A stretch of 64,000 nucleotides of DNA, taken from assembly GCA_011321815.1 (NCBI GenBank), contig DROS01000069.1:62001-126000 (forward strand). Direction: 5' to 3'. Shown here piece by piece: positions 553 to 62,824 of this stretch. A program made the position numbers and the translations under genes. This DNA comes from Gammaproteobacteria bacterium. Its GTDB lineage: Bacteria; Pseudomonadota; Gammaproteobacteria; SZUA-152. The notes under the pieces were generated by a model. That model did not search any database. It saw only the letters and a program-made list of their open reading frames with translations, and had not been told where the DNA came from. The stretch's first letter is position 1, and the number at the start of each line of letters is the position of its first letter.

Positions 553-867
553 CTACTCGTGCGGAATGCGATAGGCATCCATTTCCACCTCGCGCAGGGC
601 CTGTCCGAACATTACGATACGCCCTTGATACCGTTCAGCGCCATCGCTGGTAAATTCAAAAAAATATAAACGGCATAACTGGATTTTTCCTTGTGCATTA
701 CGCCGGAACCATTGCCGTTTCCGTTCGACGGTGTCGTCGAGAAATTGTACCCCGGCCTGTTGACAGGCCCGCAACCCAGCGTTGCGGGCAAGTTCCTGAG
801 TGCGCACACTGTCCCACCAATACCATATGCTCAGCCCCAATATGATCAGCCACAAAATGTCGGTCAT
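553..867 (-). CDS. DUF3301 family small membrane-anchored protein
   Basis: This 104-residue protein begins with a hydrophobic segment (about residues 5-20, ILWLIILGLSIWYWW). The following soluble part is rich in Arg and aromatic residues and includes an RQWFRR stretch and a YFFEF strand. This arrangement matches the gammaproteobacterial DUF3301 family, whose function is unknown. It is convergent with trkH, with about 75 bases between the two stops. The N-terminal helix could be a signal anchor, leaving the rest in the periplasm or cytoplasm. No catalytic motif is visible. Confidence 0.8.
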   Translation of the reverse strand: MTDILWLIILGLSIWYWWDSVRTQELARNAGLRACQQAGVQFLDDTVERKRQWFRRNAQGKIQLCRLYFFEFTSDGAERYQGRIVMFGQALREVEMDAYRIPHE

Positions 868-1007
868 TGTGGGTTAGGGGGGGTAACAATCACCGTTCGT
901 GGTGCGATTCTGGCCCTTTTCCGCGCCTTGCCGGCACGAAAAATACCTCAGAATCGTATTCACGAAGGTCATTGTTAACATCCCTTAGCATCCCCCGAAA
1001 TCGGCAT

Positions 1008-1211
1008 TTAATAATGTGGTGGCGGTGGTTCGTTCGCCAGTTCGGCAATGTTGCCAGCATTGCTATCTTGCAGCTGTTGTCGCAAGTGAGAGAGGTCATC
1101 CTGCAATTTGTTAATCAGTGTATGCTGCGCCAGCAATACGCCATTTATTTCTTCCAGTGCCGCCTCCTGGTGTGTGAGACGGATTTCCAGGTCGGTTATT
1201 CTGTTTTCCAT
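1008..1211 (-). CDS. slyX: SlyX family coiled-coil protein
   Basis: The 67-residue product is almost entirely a predicted coiled coil with heptad-like spacing of Leu and Ile (LEIRLTHQEAALEEI and following). It ends in PPPPHY, which is the characteristic C-terminus of SlyX. Length agrees with the family (about 70 residues). The function of SlyX is not established; it is a widespread small cytoplasmic protein of gammaproteobacteria. It lies on the minus strand, upstream of the DUF3301 gene in the direction of transcription, with about 140 bases between them. Confidence 0.88.
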   Translation of the reverse strand: MENRITDLEIRLTHQEAALEEINGVLLAQHTLINKLQDDLSHLRQQLQDSNAGNIAELANEPPPPHY

Positions 1212-1320
1212 TGCAGAGTCATTCCGGTTGAGTTGATGGTATTTGTGGGTTTTAAATATAGAATGAATGATCTTTCGCTATTGGCCGTCGGTGGTCAAGT
1301 GAAGTTTGCTCTCTGTTAAA

Positions 1321-1431
1321 CCTAAATTAATCCGTTGAATCTACTGCGAACGCCTATGACACAGAATCCAAAAAGTCTTTTATCTTCAGCGCTATAGTCG
1401 CTCTCGCTACGATCCAGCTGATTAATTTAGG
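1321..1431. mobile_element. MITE copy 1 (internally deleted), 111 bp
   Basis: The element starts with CCTAAATTAATC and ends with GATTAATTTAGG, an inverted pair. It is flanked on both sides by the same five bases TTAAA (1316-1320 and 1432-1436), which looks like a target-site duplication. It is homologous to the reverse complement of the element at 5666-5840. It shares the stretch around CTGCGAACG near one end and AAAAAGTC plus GTCGCTCTCG near the other, but lacks about 64 bases of the central hairpin. It contains no ORF, so it would be non-autonomous. It sits directly before the methyltransferase gene. Confidence 0.8.
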
Positions 1432-1453
1432 TTAAACAATGTATGTGGGAACA

Positions 1454-2038
1454 ATGTCAGTAAAATACGAGCAGGAAAAGTGGGATCGCCGGTATGCGGC
1501 TGCAAAGGGTAAACCCCGGGCAGCGCAGGTTTTGTGGGAGGGGCATCATCTATTGCCACCATCGGGCGATGCCCTGGATCTGGCCTGTGGCCTGGGTGGC
1601 AATGCGTTGTTATTGGCACAGGCGGGGTTGACTGTACAGGCCTGGGATTTGTCACCGGTGGCAATCGCAGCACTGCAATCACGAGCGGCGGCGGCGCGTT
1701 TGCATGTGCAGGCTGTTGTACGTGACGTGGATGCGCAACCACCGATGCCTGCATCATTTGATGTTATTACCGTCAGTTATTTTTTGCAGCGGGCTCTGGT
1801 GCCGGCATTGTGTGCGGCATTGCGCCCCGGTGGCTTGTTGTTTTATCAGACATTTGTAAAAGACAAAGTGTTTCAGACAGGCCCGGCCAATGCTGATTTT
1901 TTATTGGCCGAAAGTGAACTGCTGACGATGTTCGCGCCGTTGTGCCTGCGGGTGTATCACGAAGCAGGTGCGTTGGGTGATATCACGCAAGGGCTACGCA
2001 ACGAAGCCTTGTTTATCGGACAAAAAACCGAAGAATAA
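1454..2038 (+). CDS. Class I SAM-dependent methyltransferase (TehB-like)
   Basis: The protein has the Rossmann motif I of class I methyltransferases (ALDLACGLGGNALLLAQ, about residues 40-56), an acidic motif II region (VQAWDLSP), and later FDVITVSYFLQR and LRPGGLLFYQTF, the usual motif IV and post-motif strands. The overall pattern resembles tellurite-resistance TehB and related small-molecule methyltransferases; the substrate cannot be read from sequence. I chose the ATG at 1454, preceded by GTGGGAA. An in-frame ATG at 1439 lies only eight bases beyond the end of the MITE at 1321-1431, so the insertion may have replaced the native 5' region. It is convergent with cysB, with 15 bases between stops. 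Confidence 0.85.
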   Translation: MSVKYEQEKWDRRYAAAKGKPRAAQVLWEGHHLLPPSGDALDLACGLGGNALLLAQAGLTVQAWDLSPVAIAALQSRAAAARLHVQAVVRDVDAQPPMPASFDVITVSYFLQRALVPALCAALRPGGLLFYQTFVKDKVFQTGPANADFLLAESELLTMFAPLCLRVYHEAGALGDITQGLRNEALFIGQKTEE

Positions 2039-2053
2039 TCAATCTCCGGCGTT

Positions 2054-3007
2054 TTATCGCACTGCCTGATTCTCACCCTTGGTTGATTCCCAGTGCAGAA
2101 TACCTTCCACTGCGTCTTCGGTGAGCTGTGGGGTGATATGGGTAATAAATGCGTAAACATAGTTGCGTAAGTGACGACCACGGTGCACACATACACAACT
2201 GGTGCTGGGCCGGAACAGGTGTCCGGCGGGCATCACGGTGAGGTTGTTGTCTTCGGCATCATTCAGCGCTGTTTCGGCAATCAGACCTACTCCCAGCCCC
2301 AAGCGGACATATTTTTTTATGATGTCGGAATCCAGCGCGGTGAGCGCAATGTTGGTGAGCAGGCTTTCGTCGGTAAAAGCCTGATTAATGGCGGCACGGC
2401 CGGCGACCTCATGATCGTAGGTAATCAACGGGTATTTTGCCAGTGCAGACAGCGTCAGCTCGGGTTCCTGGCTTAATGGGTGCCCGGGGGGGGTGATGGC
2501 CGACAGGCTCCACTCCCGGTAAGGCAGCATGACCAGTTCCTTGGGCATATTTTTGCTTGCGGTGGTCACCGCGACATCGGCAGTACGACTGAGCAACATA
2601 TCGTAAATCTGTTGGGTGTCTCCTTGGTGAATGCGCAGTTTTACGTCGGGGTAAATTTCAGCGAATTTGGCAATCACTTCCGGTAGGGCGTGGTAGGCCT
2701 GGGTGTGCGTGGTGGCTATGGACAGTGTGCCTTTGGTGTCATCGTTTACCTGTTGGGCCACCTGGCGGATATTTTCGGCTTCGGTAAGGATGCGCTCTGC
2801 CATGGTGATGATGCTTTCACCCGCCTGGGTAACGCCGGTGAGCCGTTTGCCGTGCCGCTCAAAAATCTGCGTATTCAATTCTTCTTCGAGCAGGCGGATC
2901 TGGGTGCTGATGCCTGACTGGGCAGTGAACAGACGTTCGGCCGCTGTGGTGACATTCAGTCCCCGCCTGGCAACCTCGCAGATATACCGTAGTTGTTGCA
3001 GTTTCAC
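2054..3007 (-). CDS. cysB: LysR-type sulfur regulator CysB
   Basis: This is a LysR-family transcription factor of about 317 residues that in relatives activates cysteine and sulfate assimilation genes in response to N-acetylserine. The N-terminal helix-turn-helix is clear (TAAERLFTAQSGISTQIR). With the GTG start at 3007 the protein begins with KLQQLRY after the initiator. The ligand-binding residues then fall at Thr100, Thr102 and Gln103 (TTHTQ), the positions known in enterobacterial CysB. An AAGAGG ribosome site lies the right distance before this GTG; another in-frame GTG nine bases upstream is less well placed. The CysB family follows with ARYAL, here changed to AYHAL. Confidence 0.93.
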   Translation of the reverse strand: MKLQQLRYICEVARRGLNVTTAAERLFTAQSGISTQIRLLEEELNTQIFERHGKRLTGVTQAGESIITMAERILTEAENIRQVAQQVNDDTKGTLSIATTHTQAYHALPEVIAKFAEIYPDVKLRIHQGDTQQIYDMLLSRTADVAVTTASKNMPKELVMLPYREWSLSAITPPGHPLSQEPELTLSALAKYPLITYDHEVAGRAAINQAFTDESLLTNIALTALDSDIIKKYVRLGLGVGLIAETALNDAEDNNLTVMPAGHLFRPSTSCVCVHRGRHLRNYVYAFITHITPQLTEDAVEGILHWESTKGENQAVR

Positions 3008-3296
3008 CGCAAGCACCTCTTATATTGGTATAGGATAAAATTATATCTCGTTATATTTTCTGAGTATTTGAAATCAGACCCACCTTTTTACCACAAAAAT
3101 ACACCAATGAGCATCTAAATATTGATAAATATTTCCCAAATCATGAAATTGGAAAACTATCGTGATATTTATCACGTTTTCATAGAAGGAGTGTTCAGCA
3201 CATCCGGTAATGGCCGTAAGAATTCATGAGTAACGCATCACACAATGCGTAGAAAAATTGAACCCAGATTACCCATAACCGGACAGCAGGAGAACG
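3008..3296. promoter_or_regulatory. cysB / Sel1-gene divergent intergenic region
   Basis: About 290 bases without a gene separate the divergent cysB and Sel1-repeat genes. The stretch is AT-rich near cysB. On the minus strand a perfect TATAAT (3045-3040) lies about 35 bases before the cysB start and is a candidate -10 box; no good -35 is seen. Towards the plus-strand gene, CGTGATATTTATCACG (about 3161-3176) forms a short palindrome that could be an operator. AGGAGA precedes the Sel1-gene start. No ORF in the gap looks real. Confidence 0.35.
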
Positions 3297-4127
3297 ATGA
3301 TGATTTTTGTACCTCGTCACACACAGAATGCAACACGTAGCGCGCCAGGCGTTTTTTGCAAAGTCATTATCGGCTTATCGCTGAGTATTGCGGCCTTTGG
3401 TGCACAGGCTGATTTATATGAAGATGGCCTGATGGCTTATGCCGTGGGTAATTATGCCAAGGCGGGACAGCATTTTATGGATGCTGCGGATGCAGGTAAT
3501 GCAGGAGCAGAGCACATGCTGATGCGTCTGTTTGAGGAGAATAAACTTTATGCCAAGGATATACAGGCTGAAACTCTGAAATGGACACGCAGAGCGGCGG
3601 AAAAAGGTGTGGTGCATGCACAGCTTTCTTTGGGCAGGATTTATGCGGAAAAACAAGGTGATGTGAAGGCTGCCGTTGAGTGGTATCGCAAGGCCGCAGA
3701 ACAGGGTCACCCGGATGCGTATTATCAATTGGGTGCCGTGTTTGCCAAGGGTGCGAAAGGCGTGGAGGCCGATACGCAGGAAAGCCGCCGTTTGTATCAG
3801 ATTGCGGCTTCCGAGTTTGATGTATATGCGCAAAAGGGCAGTGCAGATGCGCAATACAAGCTGGCTGGTATGTATCAGCAGGGTTTGGGTATGAAAACCA
3901 ATATAGTGTTGACGGTGAAGTGGATGGAAAAAGCGGCCTTGCAAGGTCATGCATTGGCGCAGTTGAGTCTGGGCCGCCTGTATGCCGAAGGCACTGATGT
4001 GCCGCGTGATGTCCGTGAGGCACGTTTTTGGCTGCATCTGGCTGCGGCACAGGGTGAGCAGGATGCCGTTGTGGCGCTGAATAAACTCAAGGCAAGCGAA
4101 GATACGAAGGTTGCTTTGGCTATGTGA
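3297..4127 (+). CDS. Secreted Sel1-like repeat (SLR/TPR) protein
   Basis: A 276-residue protein with an N-terminal signal sequence (hydrophobic core VIIGLSLSIAAFGAQA, likely cleaved near residue 38). Tandem Sel1-like repeats of about 36 residues follow, recognisable by A-x-x-x-L-G-x-x-Y/F-x-x-G spacing: LSLGRIYAEK, YQLGAVFAKG, YKLAGMYQQG and LSLGRLYAEG. Such alpha/alpha repeats are protein-interaction scaffolds, here probably periplasmic. The start is the first ATG of ATGATG, after AGCAGGAGAACG. A strong intrinsic terminator follows, so the gene is a single transcription unit. The partner is not known; no neighbouring gene points to one. Confidence 0.85.
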   Translation: MMIFVPRHTQNATRSAPGVFCKVIIGLSLSIAAFGAQADLYEDGLMAYAVGNYAKAGQHFMDAADAGNAGAEHMLMRLFEENKLYAKDIQAETLKWTRRAAEKGVVHAQLSLGRIYAEKQGDVKAAVEWYRKAAEQGHPDAYYQLGAVFAKGAKGVEADTQESRRLYQIAASEFDVYAQKGSADAQYKLAGMYQQGLGMKTNIVLTVKWMEKAALQGHALAQLSLGRLYAEGTDVPRDVREARFWLHLAAAQGEQDAVVALNKLKASEDTKVALAM

Positions 4128-4142
4128 TGAATCAGGGTTAAT

Positions 4143-4180
4143 AAAAAAGCCGCGACCATGGATAGGGTGGCGGCTTTTTG
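4143..4180 (+). terminator. Intrinsic terminator after the Sel1-repeat gene
   Basis: AAAAAGCCGC (4144-4153) pairs with GCGGCTTTTT (4170-4179) around a 16-base loop. The arms end in A and T runs, so it can act in both directions and may also serve the convergent HDOD gene. Confidence 0.8.
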
Positions 4181-4207
4181 GGTGGGTGCGTGATACAACT
4201 AACTACA

Positions 4208-5062
4208 TTAGTTGCCCATGAGCAGCGCGCGTGCCCCGTTGATTTGTGTTTGCACGTCGTCAATTGTCGGTGCGATGATAGCCTGGTCAAGCCCGGTCAG
4301 TTCCCAGGCGATATCGTGGATACGTGGAGCATTGTCCAGTTCGTGAGTGTTCAATTCGACCAGGGCGGCAATACTGTTGGCAATGTGCACAATGGCCGTT
4401 TCCACACGGTTCTGTTTGGCATGTGCCGGGTTGTGATGGTAGGCAATGCACTCTTGCAGGCTGACAGGCAATGACCAGCTGCGTGCCAGTTCGCTACCGA
4501 CTTCCGCGTGGTCAAAACTGATAATATCTCGCTCGGCCTCCTGGGATTCCAGTTCGTCCGGGCTGTCAAGACAGGCTTCAAGGGTTTGGCGCGAAAGATC
4601 CGGCAGGGTGTGGTACAACACCAGCTGGCCGATATCGTGTAACAGGCCTGCAACAAATACTGCTTCGCGTTGGCGTTTGAGACATTTCAGGGCGAGGGTG
4701 CGTGCGCACAGGGCGCAAAGAATGCTGTGTTCCCAGAAGCTCTCCATGGAAACCAGCTCGTTGGGGATACCATCAAAAGACTTACAGGCGGATGTGGCCA
4801 GGGCCAGATCGCGCACCTGTTGGGTACCGAGCACGGTAACGGCACGGGATACGGTATCTATTTGTGTGGACAGCCCGTACATGGGGCTGTTGGCAACCCG
4901 CAACAGCCGGGCAGTAAGGGCAACGTCCTGAGTGATGACGTGGGCAATGTCATCTGCGCTACTGGTAGGATCTTCCACCAGCTCGTTGAGTTTTACATAC
5001 GCTGCCGGTAGTGAAATCAGTTGTTCAACATTGCCCAGTAAATCCTGAATTTTTTCATTCAT
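4208..5062 (-). CDS. HDOD domain signalling protein
   Basis: The 284-residue protein is essentially one HDOD domain, a metal-lacking relative of the HD superfamily found in bacterial signalling and motility regulation. Typical sequence is seen: LPAAYVKLNELV, the helix ITQDVALTARLLRVANSPMYGL, VLGTQQVRDLAL, FWEHSI and FVAGLLHDIGQLVL. I chose the ATG at 5062 (MNEKIQDLL), because the upstream extension to 5143 is low-complexity, polar and unlike the family. It is downstream of the PilZ gene on the same strand with a gap of about 110 bases, so the two may be cotranscribed. Specific function unknown. Confidence 0.87.
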   Translation of the reverse strand: MNEKIQDLLGNVEQLISLPAAYVKLNELVEDPTSSADDIAHVITQDVALTARLLRVANSPMYGLSTQIDTVSRAVTVLGTQQVRDLALATSACKSFDGIPNELVSMESFWEHSILCALCARTLALKCLKRQREAVFVAGLLHDIGQLVLYHTLPDLSRQTLEACLDSPDELESQEAERDIISFDHAEVGSELARSWSLPVSLQECIAYHHNPAHAKQNRVETAIVHIANSIAALVELNTHELDNAPRIHDIAWELTGLDQAIIAPTIDDVQTQINGARALLMGN

Positions 5063-5172
5063 GGTCAGTATCTGTCCGGTTGCCTGATTGTTTGTATGCG
5101 ATCTGAAGCGCCCACTATGGGTGTGCTGAGTGAGTGCGGACACTTACAGGGTTTAGATGTACCATAGTAGTG

Positions 5173-5604
5173 CTAGTTGTCGTTGTCTTCTGTATCGGTG
5201 CCCGGGAAGTCCGTTGCATATTTCTGAATCCATTCCACGGCGGCTTGTTCGCCGCTGAGCTGACGTCCGTCTTTGTCGAAAACCTCCTGTTTATACTGTT
5301 CAATGTGGCAAATCTGTTCGACCATACGTGCCCGAAAAGAGTCATTTTCATCCATAAACTGGATGCCGATTTCAAAAGCGTTTTGCAGAGGATGACACCA
5401 GGTGACTTTACCAACGGCCTGAAATACGGGTGACACCAACGGAATTTTGATACGGATAGTGGTGCCTGGCCTCAGTGTGACCGTGGAATGAAAGGCGAGC
5501 CCACCCTGGCTGACATTTTTAAGATAATCGCTACCGTTTGTAACCAGCTCTTCCAGTTGAAAATCAACGGGAATGCTTGAAGGGTGTCGGATAAAGCTGC
5601 GCAT
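5173..5604 (-). CDS. PilZ domain protein, probable c-di-GMP receptor
   Basis: The protein carries the two cyclic-di-GMP binding motifs of PilZ domains: RSFIR (RxxxR) at its N-terminus and NVSQGG (N/DxSxxG) about 25 residues later. Beta strands follow (TTIRIKIPL, FQAVGKVTW, FEIGIQF). The conserved GxVxW and GIxF features are present. An acidic tail (TDTEDNDN) closes the protein. I place the start at the ATG at 5604, just before the RxxxR motif; an in-frame ATG at 5631 would add nine residues. It probably acts as an adaptor that responds to c-di-GMP made by enzymes such as the one encoded at 43.6-46.3 kb; the partner is unknown. Confidence 0.87.
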   Translation of the reverse strand: MRSFIRHPSSIPVDFQLEELVTNGSDYLKNVSQGGLAFHSTVTLRPGTTIRIKIPLVSPVFQAVGKVTWCHPLQNAFEIGIQFMDENDSFRARMVEQICHIEQYKQEVFDKDGRQLSGEQAAVEWIQKYATDFPGTDTEDNDN

Positions 5605-5665
5605 GATTTGCTTTGCTCTTAGTTTCCTCAAAAAACGCGACGGCTGTGCTGTGCGTGCGCGTTAT

Positions 5666-5840
5666 CCTAAATTAATCAGTTGAGCCGTCACGAGAGCGGC
5701 TAAGGTGCTCAAGATCAATGACTTTTTCGGTTATTTTGAATGAAAGCGTATCACCCATACGGTGAGTTCAAAATGTTCGAAAAAGTCATTGAGATTGAGT
5801 GCATTAGACGTTCGCAGCAGGCTCAACTGATTAATTTAGG
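5666..5840. mobile_element. MITE copy 2 (full length), 175 bp
   Basis: A 21-bp perfect terminal inverted repeat bounds the element (5666-5686 and 5820-5840, beginning CCTAAATTAATCAGTTGAG). It is flanked by a direct GTTAT duplication (5661-5665 and 5841-5845). Inside, 5715-5729 pairs perfectly with 5778-5792, and further nested pairs (ATTTTGAA with TTCAAAAT, TCACC with GGTGA) make the core one long hairpin. It has no coding capacity. The element lies between the PilZ and deacetylase genes, and is the fuller relative of the copy at 1321-1431, in opposite orientation. Confidence 0.88.
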
Positions 5841-5941
5841 GTTATCCTTCATGAAAAAATAGCCGGGTACCTGTTTGTATTCAAGGTAATATTGCATAGT
5901 CAGTGTATCTGTCTATTGGCGGCGGCAGCCGTTTTCGGGCG

Positions 5942-5958
5942 TATACCCGTAGCGTTTG
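5942..5958. repeat. Solo terminus matching the 47.7-kb inverted-repeat element
   Basis: Seventeen bases, TATACCCGTAGCGTTTG, are identical to the left end of the element at 47695-47855. No matching second end is visible nearby. The gap from 5841 to 6047 otherwise holds nothing I can name. It may be a remnant of the same repeat family. Confidence 0.4.
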
Positions 5959-6047
5959 AGGGTGAAAAGCGCATGACAGGCTTCTGTAATCCAGCCGGGT
6001 TTTCCAGGAATATCCTAATACACCGCAAAACGGGATAGAATTTGTTC

Positions 6048-7124
6048 ATGCGCTCATTGAAATGTCTTGAGAATTCCCGGTGTGCTTATTGGTCCAGCAT
6101 GCTGCTGGTGCTGTTAATGGGCAGTGGGCTGTCCAGTGTCAAGGCTGAAGAATCACAAGCCGTGGTGCTCATGTATCATCACTTTGGTGTGGACAAATAT
6201 CCGTCAACCAATATCCGGCTCACACAATTCGATGCCCATCTGGATTATTTGGCGCAGGCTGGGTATCAGGTCTGGCCGTTGGCAAAGGTGGTGGATTATG
6301 TGCGCGGGCAAAAGCCTTTTCCCGGGCGTGTCGTGGCCATTACCATGGATGATGCTTATCGTTCGGTGTTTGATGAAGCCTATCCACGGTTACGCAAACG
6401 TGGTTGGCCATTTACCGTTTTTGTTGCCACCGATGGTGTTGACCGGCATTTTCAAGCCTATATGAGTTGGCAGCAGATGCGTGAAATGCAGCAGTACGGG
6501 GCGAATTTTGAAAACCATTCAGCAACGCATGATTACCTGATTCGGCGTCAGAAAGATGAAACCGCCGCACAATGGCGTCAACGTATGCAGGATGACATCG
6601 GTCGTGCCCAGCAGCGTATCAAAGCGGAGCTGGGCAGGGCGCCGACATTTTTTGCGTATCCCTACGGTGAATATAACGAAGCGCTGGCGGGGCTGGTCAA
6701 TGAAATGGGGTTGGTGGCTTTGGGGCAGCAATCCGGGCCGGTGGGTTTAGGGGCAGATTTGCGTGCTTTACCACGCTTTCCGATGGCGGAGCGTTTTGCG
6801 GCTTTGCCGGATTTCAAACAAAAGCTGCAAAGTCTGGCCTTTCCCATTACCGCGGTACAGCCATGGGAGCCGGTGGTTACGGTAAAGGAGGCTCCGCAGA
6901 TGGGGATTGTGTTGGCGGCGAGTGATGCGCAACTGGATCGGTTATCGTGTTTTGTATCAGGTCAGGGTGCGGTGGCGGTCAGGTGGATTGATCGAAATAG
7001 GCGGCATTTTGTGGTGCAGGCGCCGGCCGCTTTACCGCGCGGGCGCAGTCGTTACAACTGCACTGCGCCATCGTCCCGGCCAGGGCGTTATTTCTGGTTC
7101 AGCCACCTGTGGATTGTGCCTTGA
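6048..7124 (+). CDS. Secreted polysaccharide deacetylase (NodB/PgaB-like)
   Basis: A 358-residue exported enzyme of carbohydrate-esterase family 4. After a signal peptide (hydrophobic MLLVLLMGSGLSSVKA) comes VVLMYHHFG, as in PgaB-type enzymes. The metal and catalytic motifs follow: ITMDDAY (about residue 100), the zinc-binding HSATH (about residue 156) and AYPYGEY (about residue 203). The first Asp of MDD would be the catalytic base. The C-terminal 100 residues are outside the NodB fold and may help bind the glycan. The likely role is de-N-acetylation of an envelope or exopolysaccharide. An upstream TTG at 6042 is also possible. It is convergent with the HPr gene. Confidence 0.87.
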   Translation: MRSLKCLENSRCAYWSSMLLVLLMGSGLSSVKAEESQAVVLMYHHFGVDKYPSTNIRLTQFDAHLDYLAQAGYQVWPLAKVVDYVRGQKPFPGRVVAITMDDAYRSVFDEAYPRLRKRGWPFTVFVATDGVDRHFQAYMSWQQMREMQQYGANFENHSATHDYLIRRQKDETAAQWRQRMQDDIGRAQQRIKAELGRAPTFFAYPYGEYNEALAGLVNEMGLVALGQQSGPVGLGADLRALPRFPMAERFAALPDFKQKLQSLAFPITAVQPWEPVVTVKEAPQMGIVLAASDAQLDRLSCFVSGQGAVAVRWIDRNRRHFVVQAPAALPRGRSRYNCTAPSSRPGRYFWFSHLWIVP

Positions 7125-15972: not shown

Positions 15973-15994
15973 CCTAAATTTATCAGTTCAGGCC
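15973..15994. repeat. Probable solo MITE end at the yrbG stop codon
   Basis: CCTAAATTTATCAGTTCAG (from 15973) matches the MITE terminal repeat (CCTAAATTAATCAGTTGAG) at 17 of 19 positions, and the next four bases can also be aligned with a one-base gap. It overlaps the last codons and TGA stop of yrbG. No second end is found. It may be a decayed or recombined copy, or a chance match. Confidence 0.4.
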
Positions 15995-61330: not shown

Positions 61331-62824
61331 TTATGACCCGCTGCCAGCACCGACTGGATTATCAATTTCTAATGATTTCCAGATGTTATCGACCCTTTTT
61401 TTCACTTCTTCAGTCATTTGAATGGGTTCTCCCCATTCGCGGTTAGTTTCGCCGGGCCATTTGTTGGTTGCATCAAACCCCATTTTTGAGCCCAGCCCGG
61501 ATACCGGGGAAGCAAAATCCAGATAGTCGATAGGTGTATTTTCGATGATGGTGGTATCGCGTGCCGGGTCCATGCGCGTGGTCATGGACCAGATCACATC
61601 CTCCCAGCTGCGGATATCCACGTCGTCGTCGCACACCACCACAAACTTGGTGTACATGAACTGGCGCAGGAATGACCACACCCCTAGCATCACGCGCTTG
61701 GCATGACCGGGGTACTGTTTTTTCATGCTGACACAGGCCCAGCGATAGGAACAGCCTTCAGGTGGCAGATAAAAATCCACGATTTCCGGGAATTGTTTTT
61801 GCAAGATGGGCACAAAAACCTCATTCAATGCCACGCCCAATATGGCGGGTTCGTCCGGGGGGCGGCCTGTGTAGGTGCTGTGGTAAATGGGGGCATGGCG
61901 GTGGGTGATGCGTTCGATGGTGAATACAGGGAATTTATCCACCTCGTTGTAATAGCCAGTGTGGTCACCAAAGGGGCCCTCATCAGCAATGACACCTTCT
62001 TCCAGGTAACCCTCCAGTACAAATTCGGCGGAGGCGGGCACTTGCAGTTCGGAATTGTTGCATTGCACCACCTCGGTTTTGGAGCCGCGCAGCAGCCCGG
62101 CAAAGCCGTATTCAGACAGCGCGTCCGGTACCGGGGTGACCGCAGCGAGAATAGTTGCAGGGTCAGCACCCAGTGCCACGGCAATGGGGAAACGTTCGCC
62201 AGGATGCGTTTCGCACCAGTCACGAAAATCCAGCGCGCCGCCACGGTGGGCCAGCCAGCGCATGATCACCTGATTTTTGCCGACGACCTGCTGGCGATAA
62301 ATGCCCAGGTTCTGCCGGTCTTTATTGGGCCCTTTAGTGACCACCAGTCCCCAGGTAATCAGCGGCCCCACATCGCCGGGCCAACAGGTCTGGATGGGCA
62401 GCTTGCTTAAATCGACATTGTCGCCTTCGATGACGATCTCCTGGCAAGCGGCCTTTTTTACCACCTTTGGCGCCATGTTCAGCACCTGCTTGAATACCGG
62501 CAGTTTGTCCCACGCATCTTTCATGCCCTTGGGGGGGGCTGGCTCCTTCAGAAAGGCCAGCAATTTGCCCACTTCGCGCAATGCTGCCACCGATTCTTCA
62601 CCCATACCCAGGGCCACGCGCTCCGGAGTGCCAAACAGGTTGCCGAGTACGGGAATGTCGGAGCCGGTGACGTTTTCAAACAACAGTGCGGGACCGCGTG
62701 CGCGCAGGGTACGGTCGCAGATCTCAGTCATCTCCAGGTTGGGGTCAATCTCCTGGGTAATGCGTTTAAGTTGGCCGCGTTTTTCCAGTTGGGCGATAAA
62801 ATCTCGCAGGTCTTGGTATTTCAT
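61331..62824 (-). CDS. ubiD: 3-octaprenyl-4-hydroxybenzoate decarboxylase UbiD
   Basis: UbiD removes the carboxyl group from prenylated 4-hydroxybenzoate, using prenylated FMN made by UbiX. The family blocks [28 protein letters not shown] and [13 protein letters not shown], with the catalytic Arg/Glu region, are present. Length (497 from the ATG at 62824) is that of E. coli (497). Together with ubiC and ubiA at 17-18.5 kb, three successive ubiquinone steps are in the window; UbiX is not. It is the first gene of a short minus-strand unit. Confidence 0.96.

Follow-up and report, generated by a model that had tools for sequence, protein, structure and literature searches.

A 175-bp foldback MITE in a gammaproteobacterial genome, and a divergent IS1380-family subgroup as its likely parent

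The divergent intergenic gap between a PilZ-domain gene (5173-5631, minus strand) and a polysaccharide deacetylase gene (6042-7124, plus strand) in a gammaproteobacterial contig (DROS01000069.1) contains a short sequence predicted to fold into a long hairpin, which raises the questions of what this sequence is, which enzyme would have placed it there and why it folds. In this work, the window is the whole stretch of DNA that was analysed (64,000 nucleotides, positions 62,001 to 126,000 of the contig), and coordinates refer to it. The features of the locus are the following:

5666-5840, plus strand (that of the stabler RNA fold and the orientation of model R1): 175-bp MITE, supported by ends, duplication, fold and R1 score
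5661-5665, no strand: left copy of the target-site duplication GTTAT, present once, as G[CT]TAT, where the six aligned relatives have the unoccupied site
5841-5845, no strand: right copy of the target-site duplication GTTAT, read from the sequence
5666-5686, plus strand: left terminal inverted repeat, CCTAAATTAATCAGTTGAGCC, from the inverted-repeat search
5820-5840, minus strand: right terminal inverted repeat, the perfect complement of the left one, from the same search
5694-5740, plus strand: left arm of an imperfect inverted repeat nested within the ends; the perfect 15-bp repeat occupies 5715-5729 of it
5767-5813, minus strand: right arm of this nested imperfect repeat; the perfect 15-bp repeat occupies 5778-5792 of it

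The initial annotation had described a 175-bp copy with perfect 21-bp ends, a GTTAT duplication, an inner perfect 15-bp inverted repeat and an extended RNA stem, and all of these were found again. The terminal repeats are 100% complementary over 21 bp, and the second inverted repeat (47 bp, 79%) is nested within them. The predicted RNA pairs nearly from end to end at -97.3 kcal/mol, against -40.0 +/- 3.9 for shuffled sequences (z -14.9; none of 200 shuffles equally stable), and the stem covaries, as described below. Model R1, built from 17 sequences that include the window copy itself, gives 191.1 bits on the plus strand and 117.0 on the minus strand. No listed open reading frame overlaps the element, whose size is too small for a transposase. 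In an Rfam scan of the window a tRNA was the sole match above the gathering score, with none on the element, and a search for a sigma-70-like site near it gave nothing better than chance.

The history of the site was followed by searching the genus with window positions 700-6700 (12 genomes) and then aligning the intergenic gap in six relatives. All six (G002, G003, G005, G006, G007 and G009) have the orthologous site without the element, the flanks joining at GCG[CT]TATCCT, and the element was thus inserted into a formerly empty site. In G003, a MITE of another subfamily (L388/L375, G003:C59:31412-31596) has been inserted independently at a point farther downstream in this gap, where ATAAT is duplicated; the gap is perhaps a preferred landing region. 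The initial annotation had considered the sequence a member of a transposon-derived family, and had named the lack of any autonomous element with such ends and of polymorphic insertions as what would speak against it. The duplication, the further genomic copies and the empty site agree with that origin, insertions vary among related species, and autonomous elements with nearly matching ends exist. Taking into account that it is short and gene-less, with perfect 21-bp ends, a GTTAT duplication, multiple copies, filled and empty sites, and ends similar to those of an autonomous element, the 175-bp element is a gene-less, non-autonomous parasitic transposon (MITE).

The 21-mer end, with up to three mismatches, occurs four times in the window (0.00 expected), and its 18-mer core 47 times in the window's genome, compared with once for a reversed control. 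A lone end-like sequence at 15973-15993 (three mismatches), without partner or duplication, is either a relic or chance. Four full-length copies, 96-100% identical, are present in this genome, three of them complete at either end and flanked by a 5-bp duplication, the fourth (L003) lacking an intact left end, together with members of 104-116 bp. Of the 57 genomes searched, 12 have a match to the MITE, including 8 of the 12 from the genus, and G006 holds many copies at 96-98%. The end pattern (up to two mismatches) was counted 70+81 times in G014, 49+59 in G003 and 39+41 in G006, and never for the reversed control. Exact 5-bp duplications flank 87 of the 124 elements with enough flanking sequence, and 82 of these 87 fit W-T-N-A-W, the commonest, complements included, being ATAAT (30), TTAAA (29) and TTCAA (11). 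The length is exactly 175 bp in 60 of the 124, and none of 81 elements lies inside an open reading frame.

A contig scan with one genome per species, whose host range is a lower bound, found at least 118 stretches with the end. Among the matches listed, paired elements occur in MAGs labelled Cellvibrionaceae, Thiohalomonas, Ectothiorhodospiraceae, Methylococcales and Kangiellaceae, in a Lucinoma symbiont, in Endozoicomonas and in one MAG labelled Deltaproteobacteria; the family is spread across several gammaproteobacterial groups. The last of these MAGs carries a 163-bp member with a TTAAA duplication (L237, JAESQZ010000223.1, 1640-1802), which reflects either an inter-class transfer or misbinning. 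Six stretches (four from Flavobacterium, one from Acinetobacter and one from Oceanobacillus) have only an unpaired 18-mer and look like chance. A search of plasmids and phages for the MITE found nothing; one viral contig bears the 18-mer, unpaired.

The window also contains a short member of the family:

1321-1431, minus strand: 111-bp short member without the apical 64 bases, nearest to subfamily c3, with TTAAA duplications at 1316-1320 and 1432-1436

As the initial annotation had stated, this copy aligns to the reverse complement of the 175-bp copy with a single internal gap of 64 bases. It had also been taken as an illustration of how shorter variants arise, which holds in part: there is one common internal deletion, in a different source subfamily. 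The short copy is 93% identical to c3 and only 80% to the copy at 5666-5840, which rules out derivation from the latter. The genome has four more copies, 110-111 bp long, from which this apical stretch is likewise missing; the identity of the five short copies is 87-93% with c3 and 76-80% with the full-length copy of the window, and one of them (L017) is slightly nearer to c5. Since they share one deletion and are nearest to another subfamily, they point to a deletion followed by amplification of the short form in that other subfamily.

Which transposase would move these elements was approached initially with the PF13701 (IS1380-type) profile. Ends of the IS1380 family begin with CC and its members make 4-5-bp duplications; ISEcp1 is an insertion sequence of this family, and the piggyBac and IS1380 superfamilies are related. 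The first elements found had CCTAAAT-like ends and 5-bp duplications (L084, TAGAA; L094, ATAAA; L279 and L262, TTTAA), and IS1380 elements of this sort resemble the MITE in style (CCTAAATTCTGCA with TTTAA, CCTAAATCCTGCAAG with TAGAA). L084 of G009 and L094 of G044 were rejected as parent because their ends diverge beyond CCTAAAT/CCCARAT. Pairs of MITE-type ends 0.8-3 kb apart (in G014 and the at least 118 genome stretches) were dismissed as autonomous elements, being two MITEs or chance, and unpaired ends near long frames gave no parent candidate.

Closer relatives came from searching 32 genomes, most of them MITE-bearing, with a profile. Thiohalomonas G061 carries a MITE together with broken copies whose ends (CCTAGTTTAATCAGTTGA and CCTAAAAAAATCAGTTAA, adjoining ATAAA, TTGAA, TTTAA and ATTAA) are 16/18 and 15/18 identical to the MITE end, and a profile of this subgroup has matches, some of them weak, in 14 of 369 genomes. 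Two intact elements were recovered, each with an open 524-codon frame. L335 (1687 bp) has ends (CCTAGA / CCTAAA) 13/18 and 15/18 identical to those of the MITE and a perfect ATGAT duplication. L336 (1685 bp) has ends 17/18 and 15/18 identical and is bordered by TTCAA / TTGAA, an inverted rather than a direct repeat. At G201:C84 1342-3102, L336 is flanked by two inverted hairpin-arm copies ending in a CTAG-type IS1380-like end (CCCGCTTTTCTCAC, with GCTAGC outside), a setting that is either a MITE-in-MITE composite or a rearrangement. Its left end is identical to the end, CCTAGATTAATCAGTTGA, of a sister family of 236-238 bp in genus g3 (L117, L129 and L138 in G019 and G017, and contigs of G021). 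The MITE-rich G014 has a C-terminal remnant of the transposase 105 bp inward of an end of MITE type, CCTAAATTCATCAGTTAA (16/18).

The frames of L335 and L336 score 68.6 and 74.0 bits against PF13701 (DDE_Tnp_1_4; cut-off 34.7). Their best NCBIfam match is IS1380 (E 3e-37 and 5e-38), at 128.2 and 130.9 bits, below the equivalog cut-off of 180, and for this reason the group has been named a divergent IS1380 subgroup. A Y-2-R-3-E-6-K signature is matched by the stretch YRDRADCENNFDEMK. For a family whose parent transposon had been regarded as unknown, a divergent IS1380-family subgroup is the likely parent, judged from ends and encoded protein; its transposase has about 520 aa, and its intact 1.69-kb elements have ends that match in 13-17 of 18 positions. 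The initial annotation had proposed looking for a transposase gene bordered by the same ends and making 5-bp duplications; nearly identical ends and the ATGAT duplication of L335 were found, with no autonomous element having ends identical to the MITE's among the genomes searched, and no match to the PF13701, A1 or A2 profiles in the window's genome (G000). The similarity between MITE and insertion sequence hardly reaches past the terminal 18-22 bp.

It is very probable that the MITE has been moved in trans by this divergent IS1380 subgroup, now undetectable in the genome, with a stem kept in the source lineage and decaying neutrally once inserted, and with short members arising through loss of the apex and then multiplying. 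In this proposal, the transposase would recognise the CCTARATTAATCAGTTRA-type end, favour W-T-N-A-W targets and mobilise the MITE, which would have been inserted between the PilZ-domain and polysaccharide deacetylase genes with duplication of 5 bp of target; the mobilising enzyme would later have ceased to be detectable in this genome. The full-length foldback would be the form that propagates, and the short members, having lost the hairpin apex, would then multiply themselves. It is improbable that the same MITE instead owes its movement to a transposase from outside the IS1380 family, with ends that converge on CCTAAATTAATC. Such a mover would agree with the missing exact end match and with most MITE-rich genomes, the window's included, having no detectable IS1380 transposase (11 of the 32 mostly MITE-bearing genomes have an A1 match, some of them weak). 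Against it, the end match coincides exactly with the borders of intact IS1380-type elements, L335 has a 5-bp A/T-rich duplication of the same sort, and in two MITE-bearing genomes such ends lie beside transposase remnants.

The conservation of the fold was analysed in an alignment (A3) of 17 full-length members chosen by hand from 90 elements sized 160-210 bp, a choice that favours alignable members. They come mostly from 18 representatives, with L063, L131, L144, L148, L214, L215 and L237 omitted (insertions, or 163-165 bp) and six other copies added. Compensatory changes are present in 32 of the 65 predicted stem pairs, 93.8% of cells pair, and 106 cells show a change in both partners, where shuffles give 32.6 +/- 5.4 (none of 500 reached the count) and slid registers 9-24. 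Template-switch correction occurs at long inverted repeats, and as a DNA process acting on imperfect palindromes it would yield matching changes in both arms; covariation by itself fails to separate it from selection on RNA. A strand test can do so, because a G-U pair read from one strand becomes A-C when read from its complement.

The GU:AC ratio is 89:33 in 12 representatives (of the 18, those of 170-190 bp), counts that share ancestry, and the stabler fold lies on the same strand in all 79 elements of 170-190 bp, which share ancestry too. When subfamily consensuses are compared in disjoint sister contrasts, the ratio is 18:3 (p 0.0015), and under four other groupings it is 17:3, 21:4, 10:1 and 26:3; it drops to 29:15 (p 0.049) once singleton sequences are counted. 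Slid-register controls are mostly near 1.3:1, a few reaching p 0.02-0.08, a mild excess due in part to the plus strand having more G than C (0.24 vs 0.17). Single-copy substitutions kept pairing in 57 cases and broke it in 57. Within-subfamily substitutions overall show no pairing preference either (78 kept, 74 broken); both counts come from those 8 of the 13 clusters that have at least four sequences (102 of 109 distinct sequences). The even single-copy count means that the GU:AC asymmetry is explained neither by a bias in mutation nor by selection acting on copies once inserted. Comparisons drawn from few independent subfamilies suggest that an RNA-level constraint would act on the propagating lineage and not on the inserted copies.

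These results bear on three explanations of the stem. Tentatively, and at somewhat less than even odds in our judgement, this would be an RNA-selected transposon, in which only source copies with a full one-strand transcript hairpin found subfamilies, the stem evolves by compensatory or G-U steps, and inserted copies drift. The hairpin RNA would then serve the spread of the element or its harmless landing, with no host function at each site. That stem covariation arose solely from template-switch correction, without RNA selection, is likewise conceivable though short of probable. This process is strand-blind, yet the between-subfamily ratios are skewed towards G-U under every grouping, and it should affect inserted copies too, where no effect was seen. 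Strong stem covariation and a consistent strand preference would also be expected of a repetitive structured non-coding RNA gene or cis-regulatory element kept for a host function at each site. This last possibility is very unlikely, since target duplications and empty sites demonstrate mobility, single-copy substitutions ignore pairing, orientation relative to tandem neighbour genes is unbiased (15 same, 16 opposite) and Rfam gave no match.

In sum, a widespread MITE family gains a likely parent, and the contrast between founders and inserts offers a clean way to tell selection on the source lineage of a transposon apart from that on copies already inserted. Should the strand-specific wobble result hold, why bacterial MITEs fold, as a by-product of inverted repeats or through a role of RNA in their spread, becomes testable.

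Like the IS1380 family, the MITE has CC-starting CCTARAT-type ends and 5-bp A/T-rich duplications; the family has a DDE transposase (PF13701), whereas the MITE has none, and its nearest autonomous elements belong to a divergent subgroup that scores under the NCBIfam cut-off. In the literature found on MITEs and IS1380, represented partly by passages, no IS1380-derived MITE is described. That MITEs form RNA hairpins is well established (PMC10969869, PMC5896051, PMC4853749), compensatory changes have been reported in Borrelia intergenic repeats (PMC2674063), and a piggyBac paper also mentions IS1380 (PMC10813416). Hairpin MITEs are therefore a known kind; what appears new, in the literature searched, is this family, its parent and the contrast between founders and inserts. 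According to the passages available, MITEPye1 of Paracoccus yeei (PMC11578231) was likewise assigned to a parent insertion sequence by its ends and has a long RNA stem-loop, and differs in its IS1182-type parent and its 1-3 copies per chromosome. The Tn3-derived TIMEs (PMC4133298) are also transposase-less, with 5-6-bp duplications and about 260 bp, and differ, in the portion seen, in their 38-bp Tn3 ends and unrelated sequence. Correia/CREE of Neisseria, ERIC and QMITE1/2 of Coxiella, as presented in excerpts of PMC10969869 and PMC5896051, are also small, gene-less and intergenic, with inverted ends, direct repeats and a very stable predicted stem-loop; in comparison with them, the family described here has other ends and another duplication pattern, a likely parent subgroup has been named for it, and its covariation has been measured across subfamilies.
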